DNA of 55,541 nt, from positions 1-55,541 of the forward strand of contig JANXSX010000215.1 of assembly GCA_025356475.1 (NCBI GenBank), written 5' to 3'. The notes below the pieces were generated by a model. The model did not search any database, was not told where the DNA came from, and worked only from the letters and a program-made list of their open reading frames with translations. Source of the DNA: Isosphaeraceae bacterium (GTDB lineage Bacteria; Planctomycetota; Planctomycetia; Isosphaerales; Isosphaeraceae). The translations under genes and the position numbers were made by a program. How positions within the stretch are numbered: the first letter of the stretch is position 1; every line of letters starts with the position of its first letter. Positions 9,180 to 54,135 of the stretch are shown piece by piece.

Positions 9180-9219
9180 CTTGTCAGCTCCTAAAATCGA
9201 CCTGACTTAGAATTCTGAG

Positions 9220-9247
9220 ATTATCATGGGGTGTGAGTGCCTGACAA
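9220..9247 (-). promoter_or_regulatory. sigma-70-like promoter for the 54-aa ORF and dapF
   Basis: On the minus strand, TTGTCA (9247-9242) and GATAAT (9225-9220) are separated by 16 nt, close to the consensus. Transcription would start near 9213 and give a leader of about 30 nt before the ATG at 9179, with the Shine-Dalgarno AGGAG at 9192-9188. It lies in a 140-nt divergent region shared with the site-2 protease gene. Confidence 0.5.
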
Positions 9248-9250
9248 GGT

Positions 9251-9278
9251 TTGCGGATCATGCGTTGGGTGGTGTAAT
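9251..9278 (+). promoter_or_regulatory. possible promoter for the site-2 protease gene
   Basis: TTGCGG (9251-9256), 16-nt spacer and TGTAAT (9273-9278) on the plus strand, 42 nt before the chosen ATG at 9320. It matches the sigma-70 consensus imperfectly and is offered only as a candidate. Confidence 0.3.
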
Positions 9279-9319
9279 CTCGATGATCGGTAAGCGAAAT
9301 CTCCTTGAAGGGCGTCCGA

Positions 9320-34353: not shown

Positions 34354-35856
34354 ATGGATTCCGCAAGTCAATCGAGCCGCCCACTTAACATCGTTCTGGC
34401 CGCCTCCGAGGCAGTTCCGTTTGCGAAAACGGGGGGACTTGCCGACGTCGCGGGTGCGCTACCCCCTGCGATCGAGAGGCTTGGTCACCAGGCGACCGTT
34501 TTCCTGCCTCTGTATCGTGAGGCGTGGCGATCGGGCGTTCCCCTCAAGCCTCTCGAAATCAAGCTCCAAGTTCCCGTCGGCTCGACCCTTGTTGAGGCGA
34601 CCCTCGCGCAAGCAACCCTGCCGGGATCCACGGTTCCAGTCTATCTGATTGGGCAAAGCCGGTACTTCGATCGCGACGGGCTCTATGGGCGCCATGGCTC
34701 CGACTATCCCGATAACTGTGAGCGATTCGTCTTCTTCTCCCGGGCGATTCTTGAAGCCATCGTCGCGCTCAAGCTCCGTCCCGACGTCATCCATTGCAAT
34801 GACTGGCAGACGGGCCTCATCCCCGTTTACTTGAAGGCTTTCTATCGCTCTCATCCCGAGCTTGCCCAGGCTGGGACATTGATGACGATCCACAACATGG
34901 CCTTCCAGGGGATGTTCTGGCACTGGGATATGCCCGTGACCGGCTTGGGTTGGGACTACTTCGACTGGACGAAGCTTGAGTTTCATGACCGTCTCAACCT
35001 GTTGAAGGGCGGCCTGGGTGACTCCGACTTCCTCAGTACAGTGAGCCCAACCTATGCTCGCGAGATCCAGACACCTGAGTTTGGCTGTGGCCTTGACGGT
35101 CTGCTCCGAAGCCGAAGTGATGATCTCCGCGGGATTGTGAATGGGATCGACCCTGCTATCTGGAGCCCGCAGCTCGACCGCTTGATCGCTCATAATTATG
35201 GAGCCGGCAACTTGGCCGAGGGCAAGGCCGTCTGCAAAGCCTCGCTCCAGCGCCGGGCTGGCTTGGCTGAACGGCCCGAAGTTCCGATCTTCGCCGCGAT
35301 CGGTCGGCTTGACCCTCAAAAGGGCTGGGATCTCCTTGTGCCTGCGGCTGACGAATTGCTCAAAGAAGATGTCCAACTCATCGTTCTGGGCGAAGGCCAG
35401 CCGCGATTCCACGATGCCTTGGATCGGCTGGCCGCCCGGCATCCTGGGAAGCTCCGGGCGTTCCTCGAATTCTCAAATTTGCTCGCGCACCAGATCATCG
35501 CCGGTTCCGACCTGTTCCTGATGCCAAGTCTGTATGAACCTTGTGGCCTGACTCAGCTCTATAGCCTCGCTTATGGGACAGTGCCGATTGTTCGCGCGAC
35601 CGGTGGGCTAGCCGACACTGTTGTGAATGCGACCCCAGAGACCCTGGCGGAGACAACCGCGACCGGGTTCGCATTTCGGGACCCCTCGGTTGCTGACCTT
35701 CTGGAGGCAATCCATCGTGCGCTTGCGCTCTGGCCCGACTCTGAAGCATGGCACAGGCTTCGGCTCGCAGGACTACAATCGGACTGGACCTGGGACCGCT
35801 CGGCCCGGTCGTATGTTCGGCTCTATCAAGAGATTGCCCAACGCGCCCACACATGA
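34354..35856 (+). CDS. glgA: glycogen (starch) synthase
   Basis: GT5 glycosyltransferase that transfers glucose from ADP-glucose to the growing alpha-1,4-glucan chain. The 500-aa length is normal. Motifs: KTGGLADVAGALP near the N-terminus (ADP-glucose binding), HCNDWQTGLIPVYL, AIGRLDPQKGWDLL, and the C-terminal SLYEPCGLTQLYSLAYGTVPIVRATGGLADTV. ATG 34354. It begins a plus-strand block with galT, a hypothetical and a GH57 enzyme, a plausible glycogen/maltodextrin metabolism set. Neither glgB nor glgC is in the window. Confidence 0.95.
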   Translation: MDSASQSSRPLNIVLAASEAVPFAKTGGLADVAGALPPAIERLGHQATVFLPLYREAWRSGVPLKPLEIKLQVPVGSTLVEATLAQATLPGSTVPVYLIGQSRYFDRDGLYGRHGSDYPDNCERFVFFSRAILEAIVALKLRPDVIHCNDWQTGLIPVYLKAFYRSHPELAQAGTLMTIHNMAFQGMFWHWDMPVTGLGWDYFDWTKLEFHDRLNLLKGGLGDSDFLSTVSPTYAREIQTPEFGCGLDGLLRSRSDDLRGIVNGIDPAIWSPQLDRLIAHNYGAGNLAEGKAVCKASLQRRAGLAERPEVPIFAAIGRLDPQKGWDLLVPAADELLKEDVQLIVLGEGQPRFHDALDRLAARHPGKLRAFLEFSNLLAHQIIAGSDLFLMPSLYEPCGLTQLYSLAYGTVPIVRATGGLADTVVNATPETLAETTATGFAFRDPSVADLLEAIHRALALWPDSEAWHRLRLAGLQSDWTWDRSARSYVRLYQEIAQRAHT

Positions 35857-35925: not shown

Positions 35926-36927
35926 ATGCCCGACCTGCGCAAAGATCCGATCGTCGGTCGCTGGGTCATCATCGCACTCGAGCGGGCCAAGCGTCCCCAC
36001 GACTTCAAGCCCCCGGTCCAGAAACTTGCCGGGGCCGAGACCTGCCCCTTCTGCGCAGGACGCGAGGAGAACACCCCGCCCGAGATTCTCGCCTACCGAG
36101 AGCGTGGTTCGAAGCCCAACGAGCCCGGTTGGCGGCTGCGTGTGATTCCCAACAAGTACCCGGCTTTGAAGATCGAGGGCCAGCTCAATAAGCGTGGCGA
36201 AGGCATCTACGACAAAATGGCCGGTGTCGGTGCCCACGAGGTCATCATTGAGAGCCCTGAGCATCATGTCAGCCTCTCGACCCTCACCGAAGAGAATATC
36301 CGAGAGGTCTTATGGGTTTACCGCGATCGGCTGGTCGACCTCAAGAAGGACACCCGGTTCGTGCATGGGATGATCTTCAAGAACGTGGGAGCCGCCGCAG
36401 GAGCGAGTCTGGAGCATACCCATAGCCAGCTCATCGTCACCCCGATCGTACCGATCTCCGTCGCCGAGGAGATGAACGGTTCCCTGGAGTTCTATAACTA
36501 CCGAGGGCGCTGCATTTATTGCGACATGATCGAGCAGGAACTTGCGACCGAAAGCCGAGTTGTCCTCAGCTCAGAGCATTTTGCCGTCATCTGCCCGTTC
36601 GCCAGCCGATTCCCGTTCGAGACCTGGATCGTCCCCAAAGCGCACTCCAGCCACTATGAAAATATCCCCAAGTCCGGCGTCGATGATCTGGGAACCGTCC
36701 TGAAGCAGACGCTCACCCGGCTGGAGACCGCGCTCGACAATCCGCCGTACAATTACATCATCCACACCTCGCCATTCGACCATCAAGATTTGCCCCACTA
36801 TCACTGGCACATCGAAATCATCCCCAGGCTTACCAATATTGCCGGTTTCGAGTGGGGGACCGGGTTCTATATCAATCCCGTACCCCCCGAGGATGCCGCC
36901 CGGTTTTTGCGAGATGCCACGATCTAG
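35926..36927 (+). CDS. galT: galactose-1-phosphate uridylyltransferase
   Basis: 333-aa HIT-superfamily enzyme of the Leloir pathway that exchanges UMP between UDP-glucose and galactose-1-phosphate. ATG 35926 has GGAG 7 nt upstream and starts [20 protein letters not shown]. Zinc ligand pair CPFCAGRE near 43-46, the IPNKYPA strand, the 'HxHxQ' counterpart [15 protein letters not shown] and the HIT-like [11 protein letters not shown] near the end are visible. The histidine of the active site is the second of the HxHxQ motif. It lies downstream of glgA. Some HIT relatives act instead on ADP-sugars, so GalT-like nucleotidyltransferase is the cautious alternative. Confidence 0.88.
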
Positions 36928-36974: not shown

Positions 36975-37502
36975 ATGTCTATCGAGCTTCAAGATCTCTG
37001 GCCAGATGACATTAACGTCGAGGTTCTTCCTCCTGTCGCGATCCTCCGCGCTCAGTTAGAGCCACTTCGTCACAAAACCAAAGGAATTCTCCAGGCCGAA
37101 CTTGATGTTGTGAACTCTGATTCGTCGAACTTGATCACATACAATCTGGATATCATCGCTCCATCCTTGGCAAGCTATCGACATCGGATTCTTACAGCCA
37201 CACACGACAAGATTTTGGTCTACCCAGTCACTATTACAAGTGCATGCTTAATTTCACGACGGGTTTCAGAGAGTCCCGAGATGCCCGCGAGAGTCCCGGC
37301 CCTCCCAAGGTTGGGCGACATGTTCTCAAAATCGGACGAATACGAGGAATTTGGTTCCCGAAGAGCCGCCGGTGAACGCGAATTCCAGCACTCACTGCGA
37401 CTGATCCTCAAATCTCGTGAAGTCACATCTATCATTTCTTCCTTGATCGCACGATCCAATCAGTTGCAACTCGATCACGAAAAGTCTACCTCCTCCAACT
37501 GA
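36975..37502 (+). CDS. hypothetical protein, AT-richer than neighbours
   Basis: 175-aa soluble protein without signal peptide or membrane segment. ATG 36975 has GAGG nine nt upstream. N-terminal half reads VEVLPPVAILRAQLEPLRHKTKGILQAELDVVNSD (helical) then NLDIIAPSLASYRHRILTATHDKILVYPVTI (beta-like), and the C-terminal half is Arg/Glu/Ser-rich with an amphipathic helix FQHSLRLILKSREVTSIISSLIARSN. No family recognised. The base and codon choice (many NNA/NNT codons) is visibly poorer in GC than the surrounding genes, a sign of recent transfer or relaxed expression. It ends 8 nt before the GH57 gene. Confidence 0.65.
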   Translation: MSIELQDLWPDDINVEVLPPVAILRAQLEPLRHKTKGILQAELDVVNSDSSNLITYNLDIIAPSLASYRHRILTATHDKILVYPVTITSACLISRRVSESPEMPARVPALPRLGDMFSKSDEYEEFGSRRAAGEREFQHSLRLILKSREVTSIISSLIARSNQLQLDHEKSTSSN

Positions 37503-37510
37503 GAATCCTG

Positions 37511-39667
37511 ATGTCCTCAGTCCGTCTAATCCTGGCCTTGCACAATCATCAGCCGGTCGGCAACTTCGACGGCGTGTTCGCGGCAACCTACCGTGATAGC
37601 TATGGGCCGTTCCTGGATGTGATGGAATCGTACCCGGAGATTCCGTTTGCACTCCACACGTCGGGCCCATTGCTGGAATGGCTGGTGGCGAACCGGCCGG
37701 AGTATATCGCACGTCTCAAGGCGATGGTCGCCGCTGGGCGAGTCGAGATCCTGGGCGGGGCCTTTTATGAGCCGATCCTGACCATGATCCCGGCGCGAGA
37801 TCGCGTCGGTCAGATCCGTCGATTCAGCGAGTATCAGGCGAAGTTGTTCGACACCAAGATTCGCGGGATGTGGATCGCGGAACGGGTCTGGGAACAGAGT
37901 CTGGTCGGGTCGTTGGTGGATTCCGGAATCGAATACACACTTCTCGATGATTTCCACTTCCAGCGCGCTGGGGTTCGGGAAGATCTTTTGTTCGGGCATT
38001 TCCTGACCGAAGATGAGGGCAAGCTCCTCAAACTCTGGCCGATCAGCGAGCGGATGCGCTACCAGGTTCCGTTCCAGGAACCTCACGCGTCGTACGAGTA
38101 TCTTCGTCAGATCGCCGAGGAGAAGCCCGGCTCGGTCGTAGTCGTTGCGGACGATGGCGAGAAGTTCGGCGGCTGGCCCAAGACGTTTGACCATGTCTAT
38201 ACCAACGGTTGGTTGAGACGCTTCTGCGATATGCTGATGGCGAACTTGTCTTGGATCGACGTGGTCACGCCATCTCGGGCACTCGAGACGACGATTCCAG
38301 TCGGAAAGGTCTATCTGCCCGACTGCTCCTACCGCGAGATGACCGAGTGGGCTCTGCCAACCGAGTTGCTCCTGCCGTATCAGGCGGCGACCGCTAAGGA
38401 GTTTGCCTCCGAACTGAGGCCATTCGTGCGGGCTGGTGGGTCATGGCGCAACTTCAAAGTGAAGTATCCCGAGACCGATGAGATGTACGCGCGCATGCTG
38501 GGGATCTCCAAGCGGCTCGCAGCTCTGGAGGCCAAGGGGCACGAGCATTCACTCGACCTGGCGCGTGATCATCTCTACCGAGGTCAATGTAACTGCCCGT
38601 ACTGGCACGGCTCGTTTGGCGGCCTGTATCTGCCTCATTTGCGTCATGCGATCCATCATCACCTGATCGCAGCGGACAATGCGCTCGATCTCGCCGAGGG
38701 CAAAACCGGTCCGCGAGTCGCGCTTGAAGTCGCCGATTTCAACCTCGACGCTCGCCAAGAGGTCCGACTCGAAAACGAGACCATGATCGTCCACGTTCGG
38801 CCTGCCCTTGGCGGACATATCTATGCCTTGGACGCTCGCGACTCACTTGTGAATCTGCTCGGAACCCTCGACCGCCGCCCGGAACCTTACCATGACACCA
38901 TGCGGGGCAATACTCCACCGCCGGCGGGTCATGACTTCCAAGTCAAAGATGCCACGCTTGTCGATCAACTGATCTATGATCGTTTTCCCCGCAAGACGCT
39001 GGTTGATCACTTCTACTCCGAGGATGTGTCGCTCGCCGACCTGATCGCGGGCCGTGAGGTCGAGCACGGTGACTTCGCGACCGGAACCTACTTGTCCAAG
39101 ATCCAGCGAGGGCCGAAGCGGGTTGCCCTGATCATGGACCGGCCCGGTCGCGTGGATCAGCATACGCTACACATACGCAAGACCGTCAGCCTGGACGCGA
39201 GCAGCCAAACCCTGGACGTTTTGTATACGCTGGAGGAACTTCCCCAGGACGTTAGCCTTCACTTTGCGGTCGAGATCAATGTCGCAGGGATGGCGGGCCA
39301 TGCCCATGACCGGTTCTATGCCGACCTCTCGGGCGAGAAGCTGGGCACACTCGATAGTCGGCTCGAACTTGACGAGGAGCTTGGCATCCAGCTCAGTGAC
39401 GCCTGGCTCGACCTTGGAGTCAAACTCGAGTGGTCTCAAGCCGGTGGGATTTGGTGCTTCCCGATCGAGACGGTCAGCCAAAGTGAAGCGGGGATTGAAG
39501 GGGTCTATCAGAGTTCCGCAGTCTTGCCACACTGGCATGTGGAGGCCGATTCGGAAGGGCGCTGGGAGGTCCGGATCCGGTGGACGATCGGTAAAGCTGT
39601 GCAACCTTCGAAGGAGCAGAACGGGGCAGCGATCCATACGCACTTTCGCCAGGGGGTCGAGGCGTGA
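37511..39667 (+). CDS. GH57 family 4-alpha-glucanotransferase/amylase-like enzyme
   Basis: 718-aa glycoside hydrolase of family 57. Motifs: LALHNHQPVGNFD (region 1), GGAFYEPILTMIP (region 2), the nucleophile Glu124 in WIAERVWEQ (region 3), and the acid/base aspartate in VVVADDGEKFGGWP (Asp214/Asp215, region 4). This combination and the length match 4-alpha-glucanotransferases with C-terminal DUF1925/DUF1926 beta domains (from about 400 to the end). It likely reshapes maltodextrins or glycogen in the cytoplasm. There is no signal peptide. The start ATG lies 8 nt after the previous gene, and its stop overlaps the DUF58 gene start (GTGA). Confidence 0.9.
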   Translation: MSSVRLILALHNHQPVGNFDGVFAATYRDSYGPFLDVMESYPEIPFALHTSGPLLEWLVANRPEYIARLKAMVAAGRVEILGGAFYEPILTMIPARDRVGQIRRFSEYQAKLFDTKIRGMWIAERVWEQSLVGSLVDSGIEYTLLDDFHFQRAGVREDLLFGHFLTEDEGKLLKLWPISERMRYQVPFQEPHASYEYLRQIAEEKPGSVVVVADDGEKFGGWPKTFDHVYTNGWLRRFCDMLMANLSWIDVVTPSRALETTIPVGKVYLPDCSYREMTEWALPTELLLPYQAATAKEFASELRPFVRAGGSWRNFKVKYPETDEMYARMLGISKRLAALEAKGHEHSLDLARDHLYRGQCNCPYWHGSFGGLYLPHLRHAIHHHLIAADNALDLAEGKTGPRVALEVADFNLDARQEVRLENETMIVHVRPALGGHIYALDARDSLVNLLGTLDRRPEPYHDTMRGNTPPPAGHDFQVKDATLVDQLIYDRFPRKTLVDHFYSEDVSLADLIAGREVEHGDFATGTYLSKIQRGPKRVALIMDRPGRVDQHTLHIRKTVSLDASSQTLDVLYTLEELPQDVSLHFAVEINVAGMAGHAHDRFYADLSGEKLGTLDSRLELDEELGIQLSDAWLDLGVKLEWSQAGGIWCFPIETVSQSEAGIEGVYQSSAVLPHWHVEADSEGRWEVRIRWTIGKAVQPSKEQNGAAIHTHFRQGVEA

Positions 39668-40563
39668 GTACGGTCGGGTCGGCAAGTATGAATGCGGGCT
39701 CAATCGTTCGCCGGGCTCGCCGGCTCCGGTTTCGGGTCGGTCCGCTCGCCCTTTCGGAACTAACGGGCGCTTATCGGAGTGCCCGGCCCGGTTCTGGTCT
39801 GACCTTCTCCGAACTCCGACCGTATGAGCCTGGCGATGATGTTCGGCATTTGGATTGGAACGTCACCGCCCGGCAAGGTCGCCCATTCGTGCGCAAGTAT
39901 GTTGAAGAACGTTCGCTCTTATTATGGTTAATCATTGATGTCTCATCGAGCCTGCAATTCGGGACGCCGGGCTCGACCAAGGCGGATCGGGCAATGCAGG
40001 CTGCGGCCCTATTATCGACCGCTGCGATCCTTGGGGGCGATCGCGTGGCGTTGATCCTTGTCACTGATCGGGTCGAGGTCGAAATCCCTCCCGGTGGCGG
40101 TGCCCGTCACCTCGCCCGCTTGACTCGGGCCCTGGTCGCCACAGTCACTGGCTCGCGCCGGACCGATCTCGCAGCCGGTCTCCCCCCCCTGCTCCGGAGT
40201 GCTCGCAAGGCCTCGGTTGTCGTGATCTCTGACTTTCTCGATCCTGAGCCGCCGGGACCCTGGAGCCAACTCTCTCGGAAGCACCCCACTCTGGCGATTC
40301 GCATCGTCGATCCTCGTGAGGAGTCGCTACCTAATGCCGGGTTGGTCGACCTGGTCGACGCTGAGGATGGGTCGCGACAAACGCTGGATACGGGATCCCT
40401 GCGCGTTCGGAACGCTTATGCCAGGCTGGCCCACGAGAGGCACGAGCGCTTTCGACGTTGGTGTGCCGGCTCCCGAATCACACGGATGGAGATGTCCACA
40501 GTTGAAGATCCGCTTGCGGTTCTGCTCCGCCATTTCCGCGATCCGACCCGAGTCGTCCGGTGA
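39664..40563 (+). CDS. DUF58 domain protein
   Basis: 299-aa cytoplasmic or membrane-associated DUF58 protein. Family motif RPGSGLTFSELRPYEPGDDVRHLDWNVTARQGRPFVRKYVEER is intact (DVRxIDWxxSAR type), followed by the degenerate von Willebrand A domain LWLIIDVSSSLQFG with a DxSxS-like metal-site start. Start is GTG 39664, overlapping the GH57 TGA. In other bacteria the partner of DUF58 is a MoxR AAA+ ATPase directly upstream, but here the GH57 gene takes that place. Function of the cluster is not established; in some bacteria it supports aerotolerance or envelope assembly. Confidence 0.9.
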   Translation: MSTVGSASMNAGSIVRRARRLRFRVGPLALSELTGAYRSARPGSGLTFSELRPYEPGDDVRHLDWNVTARQGRPFVRKYVEERSLLLWLIIDVSSSLQFGTPGSTKADRAMQAAALLSTAAILGGDRVALILVTDRVEVEIPPGGGARHLARLTRALVATVTGSRRTDLAAGLPPLLRSARKASVVVISDFLDPEPPGPWSQLSRKHPTLAIRIVDPREESLPNAGLVDLVDAEDGSRQTLDTGSLRVRNAYARLAHERHERFRRWCAGSRITRMEMSTVEDPLAVLLRHFRDPTRVVR

Positions 40564-41012
40564 CCCCCAAGACCCCAAGAAGCTACATTCCGCCCCGGCC
40601 CAACCTCGGGATCGAGCCCTGGCCTCATGCGGCGAACTCCTGGATCTTGCCCGTTGGATCAGCGATCGGGGCGTTGTTGATCGGTCTGCTTGTGATCCGG
40701 TCGAGGCGGATCAAGACGAAATTCGCCTCTCAGGTGAGCTCGATATCCGTGGAAAGCTGGCCCGCCGCTGCCGATGAACTCAGGCGAAGGCTGGGCAATG
40801 ATTCGGTCGCCAGGACGAGCGAAGAACTCTTAGGAGCGATTCCGACCCGGATCTCAGCCGAGGAACGAGCGTTCATTGCTGAGATCTTAACAAAGGCCGA
40901 TTTGATCAAGTTTGCGAACCTTGAAGCCCCAAGCCTTACTCCTACAGATCGGCTCCAACTCGACAGACTTTGGCATGTTCTGGGCGCAGCCTCGACACCT
41001 GACTTGAGGTGA
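40560..41012 (+). CDS. small single-pass membrane protein in the DUF58/Bat operon
   Basis: 150-aa protein. Start is GTG 40560, overlapping the DUF58 stop. The N-terminus is Pro-rich and soluble, one membrane helix follows (LPVGSAIGALLIGLLVIRSRR, about 31-51), then a soluble helical domain (about 55-150: SVESWPAAADELRRRLGNDSVARTSEELLGAIP, AFIAEILTKADLIKFANLEAP). This is the position and shape of the DUF4381-type subunit in Bat operons, but I cannot confirm the family. Its end overlaps with the ribosome site of the next gene. Confidence 0.75.
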   Translation: MTPKTPRSYIPPRPNLGIEPWPHAANSWILPVGSAIGALLIGLLVIRSRRIKTKFASQVSSISVESWPAAADELRRRLGNDSVARTSEELLGAIPTRISAEERAFIAEILTKADLIKFANLEAPSLTPTDRLQLDRLWHVLGAASTPDLR

Positions 41013-41020
41013 ACTCACCG

Positions 41021-42034
41021 ATGCGTCTGGCCGAACCGTACTGGCTTTTCTTGCTACTTCTGGCACCCTGGCCGTTCCTCGTCCAGCGATGGAAGCGACG
41101 GGTCACATGGCCAGGTTTCATCATGCTCCCCAAGCGACCCCGAGGACTCGCGGGCCTGCTCCGTCACTTACCGAATACGATTCGGGCGATCGCGATCGGG
41201 TGTATGGTCGTCGTTCTGGCTCGCCCTCAGTCGATCCTTGGTGAGATCGAGGTCAATGCGCGGGGCATCTCGATCATTGTTGCTCTCGATCAAAGCGCCA
41301 GCATGACGACAGATGATTTCGGATCGAGCCTTCCACGGACTCAGCCTTCGGAACCTCAAACGCGGTTCGAGTCCGCCAAGCAGACCTTCGAGACGTTTGT
41401 GAAGGAGCGACCCAACGACCTCATCGGCCTTGTGGCTTTCGCTACGTTTCCCGACCTTGCCTGCCCGCCGACCCTCGACCACGCCTTTCTGGTAGAGACG
41501 ACTCGGGCCCTTCGACCCGCCAAGCCGGGGGAGAGTAGTACGAATCTGGGAGATGCCATCGCCTGGTCACTGGACGCGCTGAGGACGGTCCCAACATCCA
41601 AGAAGGTGTTGATTCTCTTGACCGATGGACGCGATGCGCCTGGGGTTCCCTCGCCCCTTGAACCCCTCGCGGCGGCGATGCTTGCCAAGGACCTGGGGGT
41701 GACATTGCATACGATCGCGGTGGGCAAGCCGGGTGGCGTCTCCCGCGCATTCGAGCCCAAGACCGGGCTCCGGCCTGTGGTAGGGATCGATGATGGGCCC
41801 GACCTGGAGTTGCTCAAGGCGATGGCGGAACTCGGTGGCGGGCATGCTTTCGAGGCTATCGATGCCGATGCGTTGGCGGACGTTTTTCGGACTCTCGACC
41901 AACGCGAACGGGTCCCGCTGACAGGGACGGTCCGGACACGTTATCGTGAGGAATACGCCCCCTGGCTTGCCGCGAGCCTGGTCTTGCTCCTCGTCGAGCG
42001 AGGACTATCGGGGAGTCGATGGCGTCGGATCTAG
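41021..42034 (+). CDS. batA: BatA-like von Willebrand factor A membrane protein
   Basis: 337-aa protein anchored by two N-terminal helices (YWLFLLLLAPWPFLVQ, about 7-22, and AIAIGCMVVVLARPQ) and one C-terminal helix (WLAASLVLLLVERG). The VWA domain has an intact MIDAS: DQSASM (DxSxS), the Thr in SSTNLGDA, and LLTDGRD. ATG 41021 has the near-perfect ribosome site GAGGTGA, formed from the stop region of the previous gene; an upstream GTG 41009 overlapping the stop as GTGA is the alternative. Typical BatA partners (DUF58, BatB, BatD) follow. Role in stress tolerance or envelope complex assembly is known only for homologues. Confidence 0.85.
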   Translation: MRLAEPYWLFLLLLAPWPFLVQRWKRRVTWPGFIMLPKRPRGLAGLLRHLPNTIRAIAIGCMVVVLARPQSILGEIEVNARGISIIVALDQSASMTTDDFGSSLPRTQPSEPQTRFESAKQTFETFVKERPNDLIGLVAFATFPDLACPPTLDHAFLVETTRALRPAKPGESSTNLGDAIAWSLDALRTVPTSKKVLILLTDGRDAPGVPSPLEPLAAAMLAKDLGVTLHTIAVGKPGGVSRAFEPKTGLRPVVGIDDGPDLELLKAMAELGGGHAFEAIDADALADVFRTLDQRERVPLTGTVRTRYREEYAPWLAASLVLLLVERGLSGSRWRRI

Positions 42035-42088
42035 ATCCAAAACCACGTGTCATGATTCCACATAGGGTTTTTGACGAATACTCTCGTT

Positions 42089-43765
42089 ATGATCGACTTT
42101 GCCCATCCCCTCTATTTTTGGCTCCTCTTGATCCTCGTTCCTCTGGGGCTCTGGAGTTGGTTTGCGCGACTGCGGAAGAAGCAGGCATGGGAAGCGCTCG
42201 GCCAGGTGGGCTTGGCTCCCGGGGACCGTACATGGCTGGTCATGACAGCGATCGGTTTTGGGATCGTTGGGCTGGCGGAACCTCGTTGGGGAAACCTCCT
42301 GGGTGAGCAGCTTCCGGCTGGGCGCGACGTGATCTTTCTTGTTGATGTGAGCAGAAGTATGTCGGCTGAGGATGCCATCCCAAACCGCTTGGGGGTGGGT
42401 ATCGAAACGGGGCGATCGTTGGTCAAATCACTCGGGCCGGGCGACCGAGCGGCGGTCGTCGCCTTCGCGGGTCGAGCGCGAATGCGGTGCCCCTTGACCG
42501 AGAACCTGGGGGCAGTCGATCAGGCGCTCCGATCTCTCAAACCTGCTGAGGTTCAGCCGGGTGGGTCCAACTTGGGGGCGGCGATCGAAGAAGGGTTAGC
42601 AGCTTTCGGCGAAGGGCATGAAGAGCACTCCGGCGGTCGTTCGATGGTCTTGATCTCCGACGGTGAGGATCACGTCGAGAGCTGGCCCGCGCAGATGGGG
42701 CGGCTGGTCCACGACGCGATCGTGGTGACAACGATCGGCGTCGGCGATCCGGAGCTTGGGGTCGAGATCCCAACCGAACATGGCCCACTCGTGTACAAGG
42801 GTGAACAGGTCAAGACACGTCGCGTGGATGGTGCCCTGGCGGAGATTGCGGCCACAACAGGCGGGGTGTACTTACCGGTAGGATTGGCGGCTGTTGATCT
42901 TGGCCCACTCGATCGGTCGACCTTGGCACCGGCTGCGAAACGGATCTTTGAAGTCCGAACACCTCCCCAGCGCGCCGAGCGATTCGGGCCAGTGGTCATG
43001 CTCAGCCTGGCCCTACTGCTCCTGAGCTGCCGACCGGGGCGGGTGCCGCGTCAGAGTGCGATCGCTGCGGCCGTATCGACAATCGCAGTTTTGGTCATAG
43101 CTGCGGGACCGACAGTTACCGACCTGATGGCTGAGGGGCAGAGAGCCTTTCGAGCGGGTGAGGTCGGCAAGGCATTCACGGCCTTCGATCAAGCACATGT
43201 GTTGGCACCTGATAACCCAATCGTCAGTACCAACTTGGGTGCCTGCCTCTATCAGTTGGCTCGGTATCCTGAAGCGAGAACCAACTACCTGGCGGCGCGA
43301 ACTCGGGCGGGAACGGTCTTAACCGTCAAGCTGGATTTCGCGTTGGGCAATGTCGCGCTTCGACTGGGAGACCCGACAGAAGCCATTGAACATTATTCGA
43401 ACTGTTTGAACTCCCTAGCAGGAGGATCAGAGCTGGACTCAGTTCGTACCGATGCAGTCATCAACAAGCGTTTCGCGGAAGACTTGCTCAAGAACCCAAC
43501 GCCAAACCCAAGCGACCAAGAAGGATCGGCTGACCCGTCCGAGTCGCCCGACTCAAAAGCCAACCAGCGGAAATCGCAGCCATCGGATAACCCGAACTCA
43601 GGGTCCGGCGAACGAAAACCGCAAGGGGGTGAGGATTCACCCCCCAGCTCTCCCGACTCGCGTCTGAAGGCTGCGATTCGGGCGGCTCAACGAAACCGCG
43701 AGGCGTTTCGGGTCCCCGACGAAGCCCCCCCTAGGCCGAACTCGGACGGTCAGAAAGATTGGTGA
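42089..43765 (+). CDS. BatB/BatC-type protein: VWA domain fused to TPR domain
   Basis: 558-aa protein combining what are often separate BatB and BatC proteins. N-terminal helix (FAHPLYFWLLLILVPLGLWSWF), then VWA domain with MIDAS DVSRSM (DxSxS), GGSNLGAA and VLISDGED. A second helix (VVMLSLALLLLSCRPG) follows, then a hydrophobic stretch (IAAAVSTIAVLVIAAGP), a TPR block (about 340-450: MAEGQRAFRAGEVGKAFTAFDQAHVLAPDN and so on), and a Pro/Ser/Asn-rich disordered tail with Arg-rich end. ATG 42089 is chosen; a TTG 18 nt upstream exists and neither has a strong ribosome site. Adjacent genes are BatA- and BatD-like. Confidence 0.83.
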   Translation: MIDFAHPLYFWLLLILVPLGLWSWFARLRKKQAWEALGQVGLAPGDRTWLVMTAIGFGIVGLAEPRWGNLLGEQLPAGRDVIFLVDVSRSMSAEDAIPNRLGVGIETGRSLVKSLGPGDRAAVVAFAGRARMRCPLTENLGAVDQALRSLKPAEVQPGGSNLGAAIEEGLAAFGEGHEEHSGGRSMVLISDGEDHVESWPAQMGRLVHDAIVVTTIGVGDPELGVEIPTEHGPLVYKGEQVKTRRVDGALAEIAATTGGVYLPVGLAAVDLGPLDRSTLAPAAKRIFEVRTPPQRAERFGPVVMLSLALLLLSCRPGRVPRQSAIAAAVSTIAVLVIAAGPTVTDLMAEGQRAFRAGEVGKAFTAFDQAHVLAPDNPIVSTNLGACLYQLARYPEARTNYLAARTRAGTVLTVKLDFALGNVALRLGDPTEAIEHYSNCLNSLAGGSELDSVRTDAVINKRFAEDLLKNPTPNPSDQEGSADPSESPDSKANQRKSQPSDNPNSGSGERKPQGGEDSPPSSPDSRLKAAIRAAQRNREAFRVPDEAPPRPNSDGQKDW

Positions 43766-43769
43766 GTCG

Positions 43770-45017
43770 ATGGGTCTGCTCATCTGGCTGGTGATCGCAA
43801 TGGTCGATCCGATACCGATGGAAGCTCGCATCGTCACAACGGGGCCGCTTTATGTCGGACAGGTGATCGAGCTCCAAGTTCAGGTCGTGGCAGGGGCGAA
43901 TCCTCCCGAGTTGATCGCGCCCAAGCTCATGGAGGCCTCGATCCATCTGGTGGCTACGACCGCTCGACCGCTGACGACCTCGGCGATCGGCAACCTCACC
44001 CTCACGGAGCGAGTTCAATATACAAGTCGATATCACCTGACACCACGTCGCGCCGGCTTCCTGAATCTGCCACCGTTTCGGTCGAAATTGGCGGATCGAG
44101 TTGGTGGGTCGAATTCACTGCGGATCAAGGTCGAGCCGGTCCCCGATGCAGGGCGGACTCGTGAGTTCCTGGGCGGGGTGGGACGATTTGAACTTGAGTC
44201 GGAAGTCGAACCGACATTGGTCCGGCTCGGGGAGAGTTTTACCTATCGGCTTATCATGACAGGTGAAGCATCGGTTGGTTCCACTCGTGATCCCCAGATC
44301 AATGCAGAGCTTCTCGAAGAACGGGGACTGGTTCTGACTCCCGAGCCGGTCGAGTCGCGGGACGAGCCCCCGACCAGAGTTTTTCGATATCGCGTTCGCG
44401 CGACCAGTCCCGGAGTCTGGTCGATGCCGCCCGTGCGAATCTCGGCGTTCGACCCGACCACGAATCACTACTTGACCAAATCAACGTCATCCGCAAATGT
44501 TCGTGTGAAAGATATCCCACTCTTTCAGCCAAACAAGTGGATCACACCGGGTCCAAGTTCGCCTAAACCGAAATGGCACATCGTCGAGATCGCTGGGTTA
44601 ATCATCGGACTCGCGACAATCGGCGCAGTCTTCGGCTGGGTACGAGTTCGGCTTGCTCGTCTGCGAACCTGGCCCAGGACCATGCAGAAACGATTCGACG
44701 CAAATTTCAGTCAAAGGGATGTCGCCAGGCTTTTCCTCACGGGCCTGTTTGATCATTTGAACGTATCAGCACGAAAAGTCGGTCCACGACAAATCAGGCC
44801 GAACTTATCCGATGACCCGCCGACCCCGGCGCTGACTTCAGACGAGGTCCGGGAGGTCATCGAATCGCGAACTGGCGATCACAGCCTTGCGCAGAAGGTC
44901 GCTGACGTGGTTGAACGCTGTGACCGTGTTCTCTATGGAGGCCACCCGGATGATCAACTAAGTCACCAGATCAAAGAGCTGCTCGACGACTGGTCCCGCC
45001 TACCCATCAAGCGGTAA
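43770..45017 (+). CDS. BatD-like membrane protein
   Basis: 415-aa protein with an N-terminal signal-anchor-like helix (MGLLIWLVIAMVDPIPM), repeats of beta-sandwich character (GPLYVGQVIELQVQVVAGANPPELIAPKLMEASI, VEPTLVRLGESFTYRLIMTGEASVG) and a membrane helix near 270-290 (IVEIAGLIIGLATIGAVFGWVRVRL), then a cytoplasmic C-terminal helical domain. This layout is that of BatD (oxygen-tolerance) proteins. It starts 4 nt after the BatB-TPR stop. As the last gene of the operon it precedes a convergent hairpin. Confidence 0.8.
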   Translation: MGLLIWLVIAMVDPIPMEARIVTTGPLYVGQVIELQVQVVAGANPPELIAPKLMEASIHLVATTARPLTTSAIGNLTLTERVQYTSRYHLTPRRAGFLNLPPFRSKLADRVGGSNSLRIKVEPVPDAGRTREFLGGVGRFELESEVEPTLVRLGESFTYRLIMTGEASVGSTRDPQINAELLEERGLVLTPEPVESRDEPPTRVFRYRVRATSPGVWSMPPVRISAFDPTTNHYLTKSTSSANVRVKDIPLFQPNKWITPGPSSPKPKWHIVEIAGLIIGLATIGAVFGWVRVRLARLRTWPRTMQKRFDANFSQRDVARLFLTGLFDHLNVSARKVGPRQIRPNLSDDPPTPALTSDEVREVIESRTGDHSLAQKVADVVERCDRVLYGGHPDDQLSHQIKELLDDWSRLPIKR

Positions 45018-45062
45018 GAGGCACGTCACACCCGCCAGTGAAGTGGGCAAGGGACGCGCCTC
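45018..45062. terminator. bidirectional hairpin between BatD and the helicase gene
   Basis: GAGGCACGTC (45018-45027) pairs with GACGCGCCTC (45053-45062) with one mismatch; inside, GCC/GGC-rich segments can pair again. It sits in the 71-nt gap of two convergent genes. There is no strong U-run, so it is a moderate candidate. Confidence 0.45.
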
Positions 45063-45088
45063 AGATCGATCCGTCAAAAAGCATCAGA

Positions 45089-46420
45089 TCAAGCGTTGCT
45101 ATACGCGTTCGGACTGGAACCGGTGCTCCACAGCTCGCGAAATCGCGACGACTTTGAGCGGTCTTCGCGTCGGTGAGCTACGAAGTTTTGCAGGTCTAAG
45201 GTTGGCAACACCTTATTGATTAGGTTCTCGATCGCTGTGAGCGGCTCGCCTTGGTCGGGACCGACGAAGAGATACGCCAATCCATCCTTTCCCATCCGAC
45301 CCGTCCGACCAATCCGATGGACGTAGTTTTCAGGATCGTCGGGAATATCAAAGTTCACGACATGCGAGATGCCGTTAACATCGATCCCGCGGCCCACGAC
45401 ATCGGTGGCGACGAGGACCGAAATTGCGCCTGAACGGAAATCCTGCATCACACGATTTCGAGCAGACTGGGCCATATCACCGTGGATCGTAGCGACCCCT
45501 GCGACACGCCCTTTGATCCGATCGGCGAGCTTGTCCGCTCCACGCCTGGTTCGCGTAAAGACGATGCACTGACTAGGACGGTCACGTTCGAGCAGGTAGA
45601 GCAATAGGTCGGTCTTACGATCGTGGTCGACCGTGACGTAATACTGCTTGATGGCTTCGACGGATGGCTCATCCTTGGAGAGGTTCATCTCAACAGGATT
45701 GTACATATAACGGCGAGCAAGCTTGCGGATGTCGTCGCTAATGGTTGCCGAGAGCAACATCGTCTGGTGCGGATCGGGAATCTTACGAAGGATGCGTTCG
45801 ATGTCGGGTCGGAACCCGATGTCCAGCATCCGGTCGGCCTCGTCGAGAACGACGTGGAAGCAATCGGACAGGTCAAGGGTGCGTCGTTCGATATGGTCGA
45901 GCACGCGCCCTGGTGTTCCGACCACAAGGTCGAGTCCACGTGCCAAGGCACGCAGTTGTTTATCGATGGGCTCGCCACCGTAGAGGCCGCAGATTGCGAC
46001 ATCTTGGCCAGCGGCAAGTCGTTGAAGTTCAAGCACGATCTGCTGGACGAGTTCGCGAGTTGGCGCGAGAATGATGCCCTGGGGACCATGGCCCCGAGCT
46101 TCCAGCATTTCGATCAAAGGAATCCCAAACGCGGCAGTTTTGCCGGTCCCCGTCTTCGCCTGGCCGATGACGTCGAATCCATCGAGGGCTACAGGGATGA
46201 GTTCCGCTTGGATGGGAGAGGGGTGGGAATAGCCGATCTTCCGGAGCGCCTGGAGCATGGCACGGCTCAAGCCGATCGACGCGAAGGCGAGAGGGCTCTC
46301 GCACTCCTCCGCGACACGATGAATCAAACAAACCTCCATCAGGGAATTGGTCAGGACCGACGTTCGGAACTGACGCGGCCGGCATCTCGGTCCTCGAGTC
46401 ACCTGGCTCGTCTTATTCAT
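45089..46420 (-). CDS. DEAD-box ATP-dependent RNA helicase
   Basis: 443-aa helicase of the DEAD-box family. Motifs in order: Q motif SIGLSRAMLQALRKIGYSHPSPIQAELIP, motif I AKTGTGKTAAFG, Ia PTRELVQQIV, II VLDEADRMLD, III SAT, IV region QCIVFTRTRRGADKL, V VATDVVGRGIDV and VI HRIGRTGRMGK. The core matches RhlE/RhlB type helicases, with no long C-terminal RNA-binding tail. It probably works on structured RNA in ribosome assembly or mRNA decay. Start ATG 46420 (MNKTSQVTRG) is chosen; another Met codon lies 27 residues further in and neither has a good ribosome site. Confidence 0.92.
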   Translation of the reverse strand: MNKTSQVTRGPRCRPRQFRTSVLTNSLMEVCLIHRVAEECESPLAFASIGLSRAMLQALRKIGYSHPSPIQAELIPVALDGFDVIGQAKTGTGKTAAFGIPLIEMLEARGHGPQGIILAPTRELVQQIVLELQRLAAGQDVAICGLYGGEPIDKQLRALARGLDLVVGTPGRVLDHIERRTLDLSDCFHVVLDEADRMLDIGFRPDIERILRKIPDPHQTMLLSATISDDIRKLARRYMYNPVEMNLSKDEPSVEAIKQYYVTVDHDRKTDLLLYLLERDRPSQCIVFTRTRRGADKLADRIKGRVAGVATIHGDMAQSARNRVMQDFRSGAISVLVATDVVGRGIDVNGISHVVNFDIPDDPENYVHRIGRTGRMGKDGLAYLFVGPDQGEPLTAIENLINKVLPTLDLQNFVAHRREDRSKSSRFRELWSTGSSPNAYSNA

Positions 46421-46584
46421 GCTATCAGTATCCGCCTCACTCGTCAAATCCGACCTCTTCGGTCCGCTCGGAATCCTCGTCACGGTGGTGGCTTGTTTGC
46501 GACGGGTAGGGTCGCTAGGCTCAAGTGGAATCTCGCCAAAACCGACGTGACACGTTTCTTTTTTGCAACCTGGGAGCCTCACCA

Positions 46585-46785
46585 ATGGCCGACCAAGCCG
46601 CGGATCTTCAGCAAAAGTATCGGCAGTTCCTCGACTTGATGCCGTTGACACTCGCCCTTGCGGGTTTGCCCACCAGTGAGACTCGGCTCTATAGTGAGGA
46701 ACAGATCGAGGCTCGCGCGATCACGGTCCGTCTTGCGTATAAAGTCGCCCGAAGTTTGACGAAGGAATGCCTGAGCGGATCGTGA
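46585..46785 (+). CDS. small conserved-looking soluble protein
   Basis: 66-aa protein. ATG 46585 has GGGAG with an 8-nt spacer. Mostly helical by composition (MADQAADLQQKYRQFLDLMPLTLALAGLP then SEEQIEARAITVRLAYKVARSLTKECL), with a motif 'LPLTLALAGLP' in the first helix. No signal peptide, membrane segment or enzymatic motif. I think similar short proteins occur in other planctomycetes but cannot verify it here. It is divergent from the helicase gene and 160 nt ahead of another small gene on the same strand. Confidence 0.65.
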   Translation: MADQAADLQQKYRQFLDLMPLTLALAGLPTSETRLYSEEQIEARAITVRLAYKVARSLTKECLSGS

Positions 46786-46945
46786 AGGTCGCGCCGGGTG
46801 GACCGTACATTGGGTCAGGAATACGGGTTTCGCGTCTACATGGGCGTGACAGGGTTGCCGATAAAAAGTCGCATGGTTGAGCGGGCCGAGGAATTGTCCC
46901 GCTGACCGGCTCGCTTGCGAGCTACAACCAATCCTGGGAAACCCC

Positions 46946-47338
46946 GTGCGAAAGGCCCTCCGAGACATGATAGCGCCACAGCAAACAGGCGGCCGCCGCC
47001 AGCTCCGCGCCGCGATTATCGGGCTGGGCCTCGATGGTCCTGAAATCCCAAGGCGATTGAGCACCGGCGAGCATTGCCTGATCTTGGGCGGGTCGGCCGA
47101 AACTCACGCCGATATGCTTGAGACCGTCCTGCGCCTCGACGACGAACTCGAACGCATCGGTCGACCGCTCGGTGAGCTGACGCCAATGGAACTCGCCGAG
47201 ATCGCCTGGCGGATCGATAGCCCCGAGCTGGCAGAGATCGCCTGGCGACTTGAGGCCAATCTTGAGGAATCGGGCCAATCGTTCGACGATTGTACCGCCG
47301 AAGAATTGACCGAGATGTGCGCCCCCGTCGAGCTTTGA
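46946..47338 (+). CDS. hypothetical protein with a 12-residue tandem repeat
   Basis: 130 aa if started at GTG 46946 (GGGA six nt upstream); ATG 46967 would give 123 aa, and I cannot settle which is right. The protein reads RRQLRAAIIGLGLDGPEIPRRLSTGEHCLILGGSAETHADMLETVLRLDDELERIG, a shape I associate with a small planctomycete family ('IIGLGLDG...RR.T.GE...LGGS.ETH'). The C-terminal part contains ELAEIAWRIDSP followed at once by ELAEIAWRLEAN, a duplication also clear in DNA (47189-47212 and 47225-47248, offset 36 nt). No catalytic signature known to me. A strong terminator follows. Confidence 0.65.
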   Translation: MRKALRDMIAPQQTGGRRQLRAAIIGLGLDGPEIPRRLSTGEHCLILGGSAETHADMLETVLRLDDELERIGRPLGELTPMELAEIAWRIDSPELAEIAWRLEANLEESGQSFDDCTAEELTEMCAPVEL

Positions 47339-47361
47339 ACTAGATGTCCGTCTGAACGATC

Positions 47362-47405
47362 GGGGGTGGGGCCTATCTCTAAGGCTCCGCCCCCGCTCTG
47401 TTTTT
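47362..47405 (+). terminator. rho-independent terminator after the tandem-repeat gene
   Basis: GGGGGTGGGGCCT (47362-47374), loop ATCTCTA, and AGGCTCCGCCCCC (47382-47394) pair over 13 bp with two G-U wobbles; TTTTT follows at 47401-47405. It lies 24 nt past the stop codon at 47338, a classic arrangement. The rest of the 303-nt interval 47339-47641 upstream of the sigma factor gene shows no gene. Confidence 0.85.
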
Positions 47406-47641
47406 CACACCCCGAGTCTGTGACCGCCGCAACCAAGACTCCAAGCGGATCGGTTCCACCAATCCACGGGAACACACAGATCAAGGCAACTTGAGGGTTC
47501 GACTCGACACCAAGCGATCGCATGGTCAGAATCTTTCGGTCCCCCCGACGAATCTTGAAACGGGGGCAGACAGGACTGGGTAACACGCTGTGTGGTACCA
47601 GCCCGACGCGGTGGCCGGGGCCTGGCCAGGTACGACGAGCG

Positions 47642-48175
47642 ATGGATGACCGTGCATTGGTCGAGGCGCTCCGGTCCGGCGACCCGCAGGCTCCACGCTT
47701 GCTGATCGATCGGTTCGGTCGTGTCGTCTTTGGCCTCTGCTTACGCATGATGGGTCACCGGCACGACGCCGAGGATGTCATGCAGGAGTCGTTCGTCCGC
47801 GCCTTGCGGGGTCTCGATGGCTTCGATGGCGATCGTCCACTTCGACCCTGGCTCCTGGGAATCGCCGCCAACCGCTGTCGGACCGCCCTGGCAAAACGGT
47901 CGAAGCGACCGATCCCTGGTGAGTCCGCCGAAGAGCAGGTCGACCACCGGCCAGGGCTGACCGATCCTGATGATCTGGCCGGAGAACTGCGGCGGGCGCT
48001 CGAACGGCTTCGGCCTGAGTACCGTACCGCCTTTATCCTGTTTCACGAGCAAGGTTTGCCTTACGAGGAGATTGCCCTCGCGCTGGACCGACCGATCGGG
48101 ACCGTGAAAACCTGGTTGCATCGGGCTCGGGCCGAGCTTGCCGAGTCTCTGACACGTCGCGGGGTGCATCTCTAA
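47642..48175 (+). CDS. RNA polymerase ECF-type sigma factor
   Basis: 177-aa sigma-70 family extracytoplasmic-function factor with only regions 2 and 4. Region 2: GRVVFGLCLRMMGHRHDAEDVMQESFVRALRGLDGFDG, ending RPWLLGIAANRCR; region 4: LRPEYRTAFILFHEQGLPYEEIALALDRPIGTVKTWLHRARAEL (the helix-turn-helix). ATG 47642 is selected over an in-frame ATG 120 nt upstream, since the product then has standard length. It is followed by a putative single-pass membrane protein and a large exported protein, so a sigma/anti-sigma module is likely. Target promoters are unknown. Confidence 0.93.
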   Translation: MDDRALVEALRSGDPQAPRLLIDRFGRVVFGLCLRMMGHRHDAEDVMQESFVRALRGLDGFDGDRPLRPWLLGIAANRCRTALAKRSKRPIPGESAEEQVDHRPGLTDPDDLAGELRRALERLRPEYRTAFILFHEQGLPYEEIALALDRPIGTVKTWLHRARAELAESLTRRGVHL

Positions 48176-48205
48176 GCTTCGATCTGTTTTGCGTGAGGTA
48201 CGGTG

Positions 48206-48889
48206 ATGAACGATAATCCCTTCGCGCGAGAATGCCAGACGTGGCTCGATGCGCGACGTCCCCTGCCCGCCGACAATGATCCCGTCTGGGCTCGGTGGCC
48301 GGTCATCGATCGCGAGTCGAATCTTGCCACGCTCGCAAGCTATCGACAGCTCCAGAATGCGATCGCACAGTGGGCCTCGCCTCCTGCTTTTGAGGCTTCG
48401 GAATCGCTCGTCGCGACGCTTTCGATGGTTCCGAGACCTCTCCGGCGGAGCTGGCACCCTGCTCGGTGGGCGGCTGCGGCGGCGTTGATCCTCACCGGGG
48501 TCGTTGGCTTGCGAGGGTTCCTTGAGCGGGAACCGGCCCCAGTGGCGGCAGTTCGGGCGAGCTCCCGACCCCTCAACCTGGCCTTCTTGCAGGCGACCGA
48601 AGCGACGCTTCAACTGGCCCGAGCCACCGGCGAGCCTGCAGCTCGGGTCGGTCGAACCGTCTTCGAGAGTCCGGAATGGACCTCAAATTCGACTGCGTTC
48701 TTGCCCCCAATCTCGATCGAACGGGCTTCGGGAGCATTGCTAGGCGTCGGTCAGCGAGTTGGTGAGGGGGTCCGACCTCTGGGGGGCTCCGCCCGCAAAG
48801 CGTTTGGGTTTTTGGTGGCACCCGTCAGTTCGGGTTCGAATCCTCCGATGCCTGCCAAGCCGGCAACTGCCTCGGATCTTATCCTCTAA
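48206..48889 (+). CDS. putative anti-sigma factor or single-pass membrane protein
   Basis: 227-aa protein, ATG 48206 with GAGG 7 nt upstream. Residues 1-85 are cytoplasmic and helical (MNDNPFARECQTWLDARRPLP, SNLATLASYRQLQNAIAQWASPP), one helix follows (HPARWAAAAALILTGVVGLRG), and the rest is outside, rich in Ala, Pro and Gly. The typical zinc anti-sigma motif HxxxCxxC is absent. Position directly behind an ECF sigma gene makes an anti-sigma role likely, but direct sequence support is limited to topology. Confidence 0.65.
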   Translation: MNDNPFARECQTWLDARRPLPADNDPVWARWPVIDRESNLATLASYRQLQNAIAQWASPPAFEASESLVATLSMVPRPLRRSWHPARWAAAAALILTGVVGLRGFLEREPAPVAAVRASSRPLNLAFLQATEATLQLARATGEPAARVGRTVFESPEWTSNSTAFLPPISIERASGALLGVGQRVGEGVRPLGGSARKAFGFLVAPVSSGSNPPMPAKPATASDLIL

Positions 48890-48915
48890 GCCAACCTTGG
48901 TCGGAGTCTGGAACG

Positions 48916-50691: not shown

Positions 50692-50822
50692 TGCCATCAA
50701 CCCGATCGCTCGTCGCAATGGGACCACTTCTCGGACTGACGGGGGGGCGACGTCCTACCTGCTCTTACTGTAGGATGAGGCACACGCCCAAGATGGACGA
50801 CCTCAGCGAGTGAGCTTCTGCT

Positions 50823-51167
50823 ATGATTTTGGAGACGTTCGAGAATCAGTTCCCCGATCGTGATTATGAGATTGAAATCACTTGTCCGGAGTTCACGGCG
50901 GTCTGTCCCAAGACCGGTCAGCCGGACTTCGCAACCGTGGTCATCACCTATGTTCCGGACCTGGCCTGCATCGAACTCAAGAGCCTGAAGCTCTACCTTG
51001 TCGACTATCGCAATCGGGGTATCTTCTATGAGCATTCGATCAATACTATCTTGAATGACCTCGTCGGGGCGTGCCAACCCAGGTCGATGACGGTCGTTGG
51101 CAAGTTCACGCCTCGGGGTGGCATCTCGTCGAAGATCACGGCGAGCCACAAGGCCTCGAAGTCGTAG
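50823..51167 (+). CDS. queF: preQ0 reductase QueF
   Basis: NADPH-dependent 7-cyano-7-deazaguanine reductase, which makes preQ1 for queuosine in tRNA anticodons. The 114-aa protein is the short, type I (YkvM-like) form. Motifs: [40 protein letters not shown] (with the catalytic Cys of [11 protein letters not shown]), [28 protein letters not shown] (NADPH binding) and [13 protein letters not shown]. An in-frame stop at 50811 fixes ATG 50823 as the first possible start. No other queuosine gene is present. It sits upstream of a SAM hydrolase gene (49-nt gap). Confidence 0.92.
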
Positions 51168-51216
51168 AGACTTCGCCAGCTTCATTCCCCCTTGGCGGCA
51201 CGTTGAGGAGTCCTCC

Positions 51217-53381: not shown

Positions 53382-53399
53382 ACATCGTGGTGGATTGTC

Positions 53400-54092: not shown

Positions 54093-54135
54093 TGGCTGGT
54101 CGAAATTAGGCGAGTCCGCAAGTGGAGTCTGAGCG

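Follow-up and report, generated by a model that had tools for sequence, protein, structure and literature searches.

A Bat operon lacking its MoxR gene behind glycogen genes in an Isosphaeraceae bacterium, and a MoxR orthologue at a separate locus

The closest described relatives of the genes discussed here are the Bat (Bacteroides aerotolerance) operons of Bacteroides, Borrelia and Riemerella, in which the order is MoxR-DUF58-VWA-VWA/TPR-BatD (PMC5700661, PMC11834572). The Bat gene set is common to spirochaetes (PMC5700661), the MoxR-headed operon with DUF58 is associated with stress tolerance in Riemerella (PMC11834572), and MoxR proteins are often paired genetically with VWA proteins (PMC9976466). 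For one such pair, NorQ/NorD, the authors propose that target binding falls to the metal ion-dependent adhesion site (MIDAS) and that the VWA part acts as a plug in the hexamer ring (PMC9976466), and RavA/ViaA is another MoxR/VWA chaperone pair (PMC3893208, PMC10585395). MoxR is generally regarded as the first gene of a single operon with DUF58 and the Bat genes, and a locus from which MoxR is missing may be misread as a different system. Such a locus lies in the window, by which we mean the whole stretch of DNA analysed (55,541 nucleotides, contig JANXSX010000215.1 of Isosphaeraceae bacterium; genome G000 in our set): DUF58, BatA, BatB, a TPR BatC and BatD form one co-directional unit (39664-45017, all on the forward strand) directly behind a GH57 glucanotransferase gene. 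We consider it probable that this is a dismembered standard planctomycete Bat operon, whose ATPase would work in trans and whose remnant lies behind glycogen genes. Among the matches listed in literature searches on MoxR/DUF58/Bat, planctomycete operons and GH57 glycogen, whose coverage was partial, no title or abstract opening describes this dispersal; a genome comparison of the Isosphaeraceae names GH57, and MoxR does not occur in the portion of its text available (PMC5352709).

A MoxR gene apart from the Bat unit

A preliminary description of the window had noted that no MoxR gene is present in it, and this stands: tblastn with the genome's own MoxR/AAA set gave only two weak matches (11807-12343, E 1e-4; 11753-11896, E 4e-4). 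Eight MoxR genes gave a complete AAA_3 match in a PF07726 search of the contigs of G000, alongside one fragment and three weak AAA matches. The fragment, at the edge of contig C31, shares an identical stretch with the start of the MoxR gene on C99, itself cut at the end of its contig; probably a single gene was broken in two during assembly. The genome also has eight DUF58 genes, seven of which adjoin a MoxR on the same strand; the DUF58 of the window is the exception. The eighth MoxR, on contig C223, lies between an FHA-domain gene and a PMT-like gene, with no DUF58 near. It matches AAA_3 (1e-62) and AAA_lid_2 (6e-23), a solved relative is 2r44 (2e-95), and its Walker A and B motifs can be read in the sequence as GVPGLAKT and LADEIN. 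The suggestion that MoxR is encoded elsewhere, for which a search for a free-standing moxR in the rest of the genome had been proposed, is supported by this free-standing gene, which is the orthologue of the MoxR heading this operon in other planctomycete families. The same description had also envisaged a moxR beside a second DUF58 cluster elsewhere; this is literally so, seven times over, but those pairs are paralogues and not the cognate pair.

Orthologues of the C223 MoxR occur in 40 of the 45 genomes sampled from the family of the window (f1), with 62-76% identity, and all other MoxRs listed reach at most 55%, the 55% match being a second copy in G009. The FHA gene is a constant neighbour: it matches within 0.8 kb upstream of the C223-type MoxR in every one of the 38 family genomes viewed (of the 40), and one intact operon, in G049 (L185), likewise has an FHA match upstream of MoxR. 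The FHA gene could possibly supply a phospho-signal input to the separated MoxR. Within the family, the DUF58 orthologue is accompanied by a C223-type MoxR in 35 of 36 genomes, the exception being a draft that is 74% complete (G044).

The pairing was then followed in 198 genomes drawn from the class. Outside the family, 88 genomes have a C223-type match (E <=1e-95) and 90 match the DUF58 of the window (E <=1e-30), with both genes in 80. Adjacency was defined as MoxR first, on the same strand and less than 400 bp from DUF58. By this definition MoxR lies directly upstream of DUF58 in 39/39 genomes of families f2, f4, f5, f6, f11, f12 and f14, and among genomes with both genes in none of 37 in f3, none of 4 in f8 and none of 35 in f1 (an extra operon in G009, described below, being left out). 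For the counts outside f1, second copies within a genome were dropped, as were genomes with MoxR only (G060, G081, G100, G110, G146, G155, G181, G195) or DUF58 only (G058, G089, G099, G134, G137, G170, G187, G191); G120 and G183 stayed in the adjacency table, marked as DUF58-only. Two MoxR-DUF58 pairs occur in G047, with its best MoxR and its best DUF58 in different ones, and this genome was paired by place. Because adjacency is absent in f1, f3 and f8 and universal in the other families with both genes, MoxR stands apart from the operon in these three families.

Opened loci agree with the counts. Twelve of 20 outside loci opened at the C223-type MoxR come from the adjacency families, and all 12 have MoxR-DUF58, with BatA in 11, BatB in 10 and BatD in 7 (tblastn with the proteins of the window); among these 12, L190 has DUF58 and only a distant BatD trace, and L189 and L196 are cut by a contig end. 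The other eight, from f3 and f8, have MoxR without DUF58. Conversely, 16 DUF58 loci of f3 and f8 gave no tblastn match to the C223-type MoxR, BatA, BatB or GH57 near DUF58; L243, among them, has one weak match to another MoxR (3e-4). A separate observation concerns G009, which, besides its split set, has on contig C86 (L151, 5168-10482) a second MoxR-DUF58-X-BatA-BatB operon of the type of other families, with 54% (MoxR) and 37% (DUF58) identity to the genes of G000. It may be a transfer, a paralogue or contamination.

The following course of events would account for these gene orders. The ancestral order would have been MoxR-DUF58-X-BatA-BatB-BatD, from which the AAA+ ATPase MoxR would have split off in the lineage leading to f1, to stand now at its own locus behind the FHA-domain gene. 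The remaining DUF58-m150-BatA-BatB-BatD genes (m150 being a 150-amino-acid protein) would have come to lie directly behind GlgA-GalT-u175-GH57, and the DUF58-Bat part is probably read through from this glycogen run, GH57 perhaps lending its transcript. In most of the family, DUF58-m150 and BatA-BatB-BatD stand apart, in four genomes by one inversion. Since the MIDAS motifs of the VWA-type proteins and the ATPase motifs of the C223 MoxR are kept, the components of the same machine are there, encoded at two loci. Most likely, by analogy with the described pairs, a MoxR hexamer would work in trans with DUF58 and the membrane proteins BatA and BatB in ATP-driven assembly or remodelling of envelope proteins. 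A single class thus displays several stages of dismemberment (the intact operon, FHA-MoxR apart, and DUF58-m150 apart from BatA-BatB-BatD), and the C223 MoxR can be named as a specific candidate partner in trans.

The gene run of the window and its inverted segment

The gene run is listed in Table 1. The junctions are as first described: the GTG start of DUF58 (39664) overlaps the TGA stop of GH57 by four nucleotides (GTGA), the GTG start of m150 (40560) overlaps the stop of DUF58 in the same way, and the TGA of m150 (41010-41012) is embedded in a Shine-Dalgarno-like GAGGTGA, so that the small protein shares its end with the putative ribosome site of BatA. The GAGG ends 11 nucleotides ahead of ATG 41021, the probable start of BatA; an alternative start, GTG 41009, would overlap the m150 stop. 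One point of the preliminary description did not hold, namely that GH57 heads the operon: GlgA, the GalT-like gene and u175 precede it on the same strand, and the stop of u175 lies 8 nucleotides before GH57. Promoter- and terminator-like sites were no more numerous in a scan of the window than in shuffled sequence. The identities of BatA and BatB rest on the VWA domain, gene order and Bat models below cut-off, and translations of the three VWA-type proteins each contain a MIDAS DxSxS motif.

Table 1. Genes of the run in the window, the segment inverted in relatives, and the FHA-domain gene beside the separate MoxR
Feature	Position	Strand	Evidence or remark
GlgA, glycogen synthase	34354..35856	+	Pfam Glyco_transf_5 3e-81; TIGR02095 glgA 550 bits
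GalT-like nucleotidyltransferase, HIT/GalT domains	35926..36927	+	TIGR00209 galT 127 bits (cut-off 102)
u175, 175-aa protein	36975..37502	+	no Pfam/NCBIfam family; only Nnf1 at E 0.05
GH57, 4-alpha-glucanotransferase/alpha-amylase type	37511..39667 (TGA)	+	Pfam GH57, AmyA-A_glucT_m, AmyA-gluTrfs_C
DUF58, VWA-like, MIDAS DVSSS	39664..40563	+	Pfam DUF58 2.5e-60
m150, 150-aa protein, one hydrophobic stretch	40560..41012	+	no Pfam family
BatA, VWA, MIDAS DQSAS	41021..42034	+	Pfam VWA_2 1e-14; BatA N-term 5e-4 and NCBIfam BatA_Lepto 1e-26, both below cut-off
BatB-BatC fusion, VWA (MIDAS DVSRS) + TPR	42071..43765	+	Pfam VWA_2 7e-18, TPR_2 2e-11; NCBIfam BatB/BatC below cut-off
BatD	43770..45017	+	Pfam BatD 1.5e-8
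DEAD-box helicase, convergent marker of BatA-BatB-BatD block	45089..46651	-	Pfam DEAD 3e-49; adjoins BatD in relatives
Segment BatA...DEAD, sigma...QueF, SAM-type enzyme, bioA/bioD-like, H390	41013..55170	.	opposite orientation in G004, G005, G008, G010
FHA-domain gene beside C223 MoxR	L132 (G000:C223) 7545-9440	-	upstream of MoxR

The contiguous order DUF58-m150-BatA-BatB-BatD was seen only in the window. In the relatives opened, BatA-BatB-BatD lie apart from DUF58-m150, accompanied in most cases by the DEAD helicase and a sigma-factor block, and DUF58 and BatB are within 3 kb on one strand in G000 only of 33 family genomes with both. In G010, G004, G005 and G008 the DUF58-m150 pair and the Bat part are 13-17 kb apart in opposite orientation. 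These four have the same genes as the window (BatA...DEAD...sigma...QueF, SAM, H390) with the segment reversed, and in the window BatA stands directly behind m150; the difference is one inversion, one end of which coincides with the m150 stop. In other families DUF58-X-BatA-BatB share one strand, and for this reason the joined order of the window would most simply be the older state. Inside the inverted segment, by-eye naming of translations also recognized adjacent genes reading like bioA and bioD (51915-54092).

By a hidden Markov model (HMM) of the m150 proteins of the family, m150 corresponds to the C-terminal half of the protein called X in the standard planctomycete operon, with 18 matches above the inclusion threshold among open reading frames (ORFs) of 31 loci (best 4e-13). 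Assignment of m150 to DUF4381 was considered and dropped, as the protein of the window has no Pfam match. The longer protein X of G009 gives weak matches to DUF4381 (E 0.004) and BatD (E 0.005), both below cut-off.

Glycogen genes ahead of DUF58

The GH57 protein is homologous over its full length to PDB 1k1w (phmmer 7e-120), which we take to be the 4-alpha-glucanotransferase of Thermococcus litoralis. Its barrel, middle and C-terminal domains are all present, and E124 and D215, presumably the catalytic Glu and Asp, align with E123 and D214 of 1k1w. Judged from its sequence, it is best read as an ordinary 4-alpha-glucanotransferase of glycogen metabolism, whose place ahead of the Bat genes would be incidental. 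GlgA lies upstream of GH57 in many loci with enough flank, and a 41% relative of u175 stands at the same place in G010 (L010, L040).

The preliminary description had considered that the GH57-DUF58 junction might be private to the strain, which it is not. Of the 45 family genomes, 40 have GH57, 36 have the DUF58 orthologue and 34 have both; in 24 of these 34, GH57 is directly upstream of DUF58. In the other 10 the two genes are on different contigs, and the flank behind GH57 or ahead of DUF58, some 1.5 kb or longer, does not contain the other gene. G012, G033 and G034 have no clear DUF58 orthologue and show a weak DUF58 match just behind GH57. Two others, which have no GH57 match, still carry GalT ahead of DUF58: G011 has GlgA-GalT-DUF58 with 75 nucleotides between GalT and DUF58, and in G008 GlgA-GalT is followed by a 300-amino-acid ORF, itself without a GH57 match, and then DUF58, placing GalT about 1 kb from DUF58. 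The GalT match of G008 (C3:216950-217945) contains a single in-frame TAA, which may reflect an error in sequencing or a decaying gene. With G008 and G011 treated as linked, since GalT precedes DUF58, and G012, G033 and G034 as linked with a divergent DUF58, the link changed state twice on a quick tree. A stop-start overlap candidate between GH57 and DUF58 (start at -4) is present in only 3 of the 24 linked genomes (G000, G004, G007); the conserved overlap is that of DUF58 with m150, at -4 in 28/36 by a simple ORF rule. In G013, G015 and G026, GalT, GH57 and the DUF58 orthologue are all missing, a C223-type MoxR is present in all three and BatB in G013 and G015; this may be a locus deletion or draft gaps.

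Gene adjacency across a family needs a baseline before function is inferred from it. As a control we used the H390-SAM-QueF set, which lies downstream of DUF58-m150 in relatives and is convergent in 22 of 23 genomes with the set (in G006, QueF and SAM are on the DUF58 strand). A genome counted as informative if it had a match or sufficient downstream sequence (29 genomes, including 6 with at least 8 kb and no set; 7 were uninformative), and the set is within 1 kb of DUF58 in 16/29 and within 10 kb in 23/29, including all seven informative genomes that lost the GH57 link. Direct GH57 adjacency is thus somewhat above the strict control and below the loose one. Conservation to a similar degree of a downstream set that is not cotranscribed means that linkage by itself does not prove function. 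Outside the family, GH57 and DUF58 were never adjacent in loci opened at GH57, MoxR or DUF58. Weak DUF58 traces (31-35%, ~1e-11, short) lie 2-5.5 kb downstream of GH57 in four planctomycete loci (L060, L067, L071, L085), in which no MoxR of the paired types was found. With the genes unlinked in 10 genomes, two changes of state and a linkage close to that of the control, the linkage does not establish the earlier proposal that this Bat complex works with polysaccharide metabolism; the glycogen link looks like a conserved neighbourhood passed on as a whole, not demonstrably a working unit.

Distance correlations (Mantel-type, mirror-tree) lean weakly towards MoxR and BatB over GH57. Given GH57, DUF58 distances correlate with those of the unlinked MoxR (partial r 0.58, n 31) and of BatB (0.67, n 16), and the correlation of DUF58 with GH57 given MoxR is -0.06.

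Competing explanations and known systems

That the glycogen enzymes and the Bat unit form one functional module, in which expression of the glucan pathway, or substrates from it, set Bat activity (e.g., envelope maintenance tied to carbon reserves), seems unlikely to us. It would explain why direct adjacency (24/34) exceeds that of the next downstream set (16/29), why GalT is kept close to DUF58 in two genomes that lack GH57 (G011 and, with an ORF intervening, G008), the weak DUF58 behind GH57 in three further genomes, and the joint absence of GalT, GH57 and DUF58 from another three. However, the set that is not cotranscribed keeps its place within 10 kb about as well, including where the GH57 link is lost, both genes persist unlinked in 10 genomes, the outside loci opened show no adjacency (four GH57 loci have a distant DUF58 trace), and the joint absence may reflect gaps in drafts that are 77-92% complete. 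A variant in which the Bat machine has been rewired, its ATPase answering to the FHA partner and DUF58-m150 being expressed from the glycogen operon, with gating by both phosphosignalling and carbon storage, is in our judgement very improbable. Equally to be weighed is whether another MoxR, or none, serves the DUF58 of the window while the C223 MoxR works only with its FHA neighbour. The unbroken FHA-MoxR pairing in the 38 genomes viewed, the existence of seven paralogous MoxRs, and the retention of a C223-type MoxR by five genomes without a clear DUF58 orthologue (G012, G013, G015, G016, G026) would fit such a view, but each of the seven others has its own DUF58, the C223 type is paired with the orthologous DUF58 in all 39 genomes of the adjacency families, and where DUF58 is found in f1 this MoxR is missing only from the incomplete draft. 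We regard it as quite unlikely and retain the C223 MoxR as the probable partner of a dismembered operon.

The age of the joined order is less secure, and it is conceivable, if on balance doubtful, that the direct junction of m150 with BatA arose by misassembly or by chance re-inversion and is not an older state. Its presence in G000 alone, with the segment inverted or apart in relatives, and the grouping of G000 in a careful tree with G004 and G005, which have the inverted state, would fit such an origin; yet the junction has a sensible ribosome site and restores the order of other families, and the internal order of the segment is kept, ending at H390 just before the contig end. A quick tree placed G000 as the oldest branch of the family (SH-aLRT 94), and a position of G000 as sister to the rest of the family is not rejected by an approximately unbiased (AU) test (p 0.19); we do not claim this rooting, as a careful mixture tree on fewer rows did not recover it and the AU test was undecided. 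Several observations weigh against the dismembered operon as we have drawn it. In the mixture tree (41 rows) the base of the family is unresolved and G000 groups with G011, G004 and G005 (89/95), two of which have the inverted state; because the placement of G000 is infirm, the joined order may not be the older one. The m150-BatA junction was seen in no relative, leaving room for misassembly. The GH57 link persists at 56-66% GH57 identity, and the excess of its adjacency over the strict control could reflect selection on the link. Among the distance correlations, controls given GH57 also correlate with DUF58 (sigma 0.58, n 11; QueF 0.45; FHA 0.37), BatA given GH57 reaches only 0.04, GH57 correlates with MoxR given DUF58 (0.75), and DUF58 correlates with GH57 given GalT (0.65) or SAM (0.57); without G004 and G005 the MoxR value drops to 0.46, and that of GH57 given MoxR is 0.14 (p 0.07). 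The correlation of unrelated controls, the near-zero value for BatA and the correlation of GH57 with MoxR leave the distance test as weak support.

Compared with the described Bat operon, the window is alike in having DUF58, BatA, BatB with a BatC-like TPR part, and BatD on one strand, with MIDAS motifs in the three VWA-type proteins. It differs in the place of MoxR, which has its own locus behind an FHA gene, in protein X, of which the hydrophobic and C-terminal half is left, and in the glycogen genes upstream. The GH57 is likewise homologous to 1k1w over its full length, with Glu and Asp kept, but it is known here from sequence and belongs to a run of bacterial glycogen genes that precedes the Bat genes. 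With NorQ/NorD and RavA/ViaA the system shares a MoxR AAA+ ATPase with a VWA partner, and its mode of action is presumed to be the same; whereas those pairs are tied to respiratory enzymes, the partners in the window are DUF58 and membrane VWA proteins.

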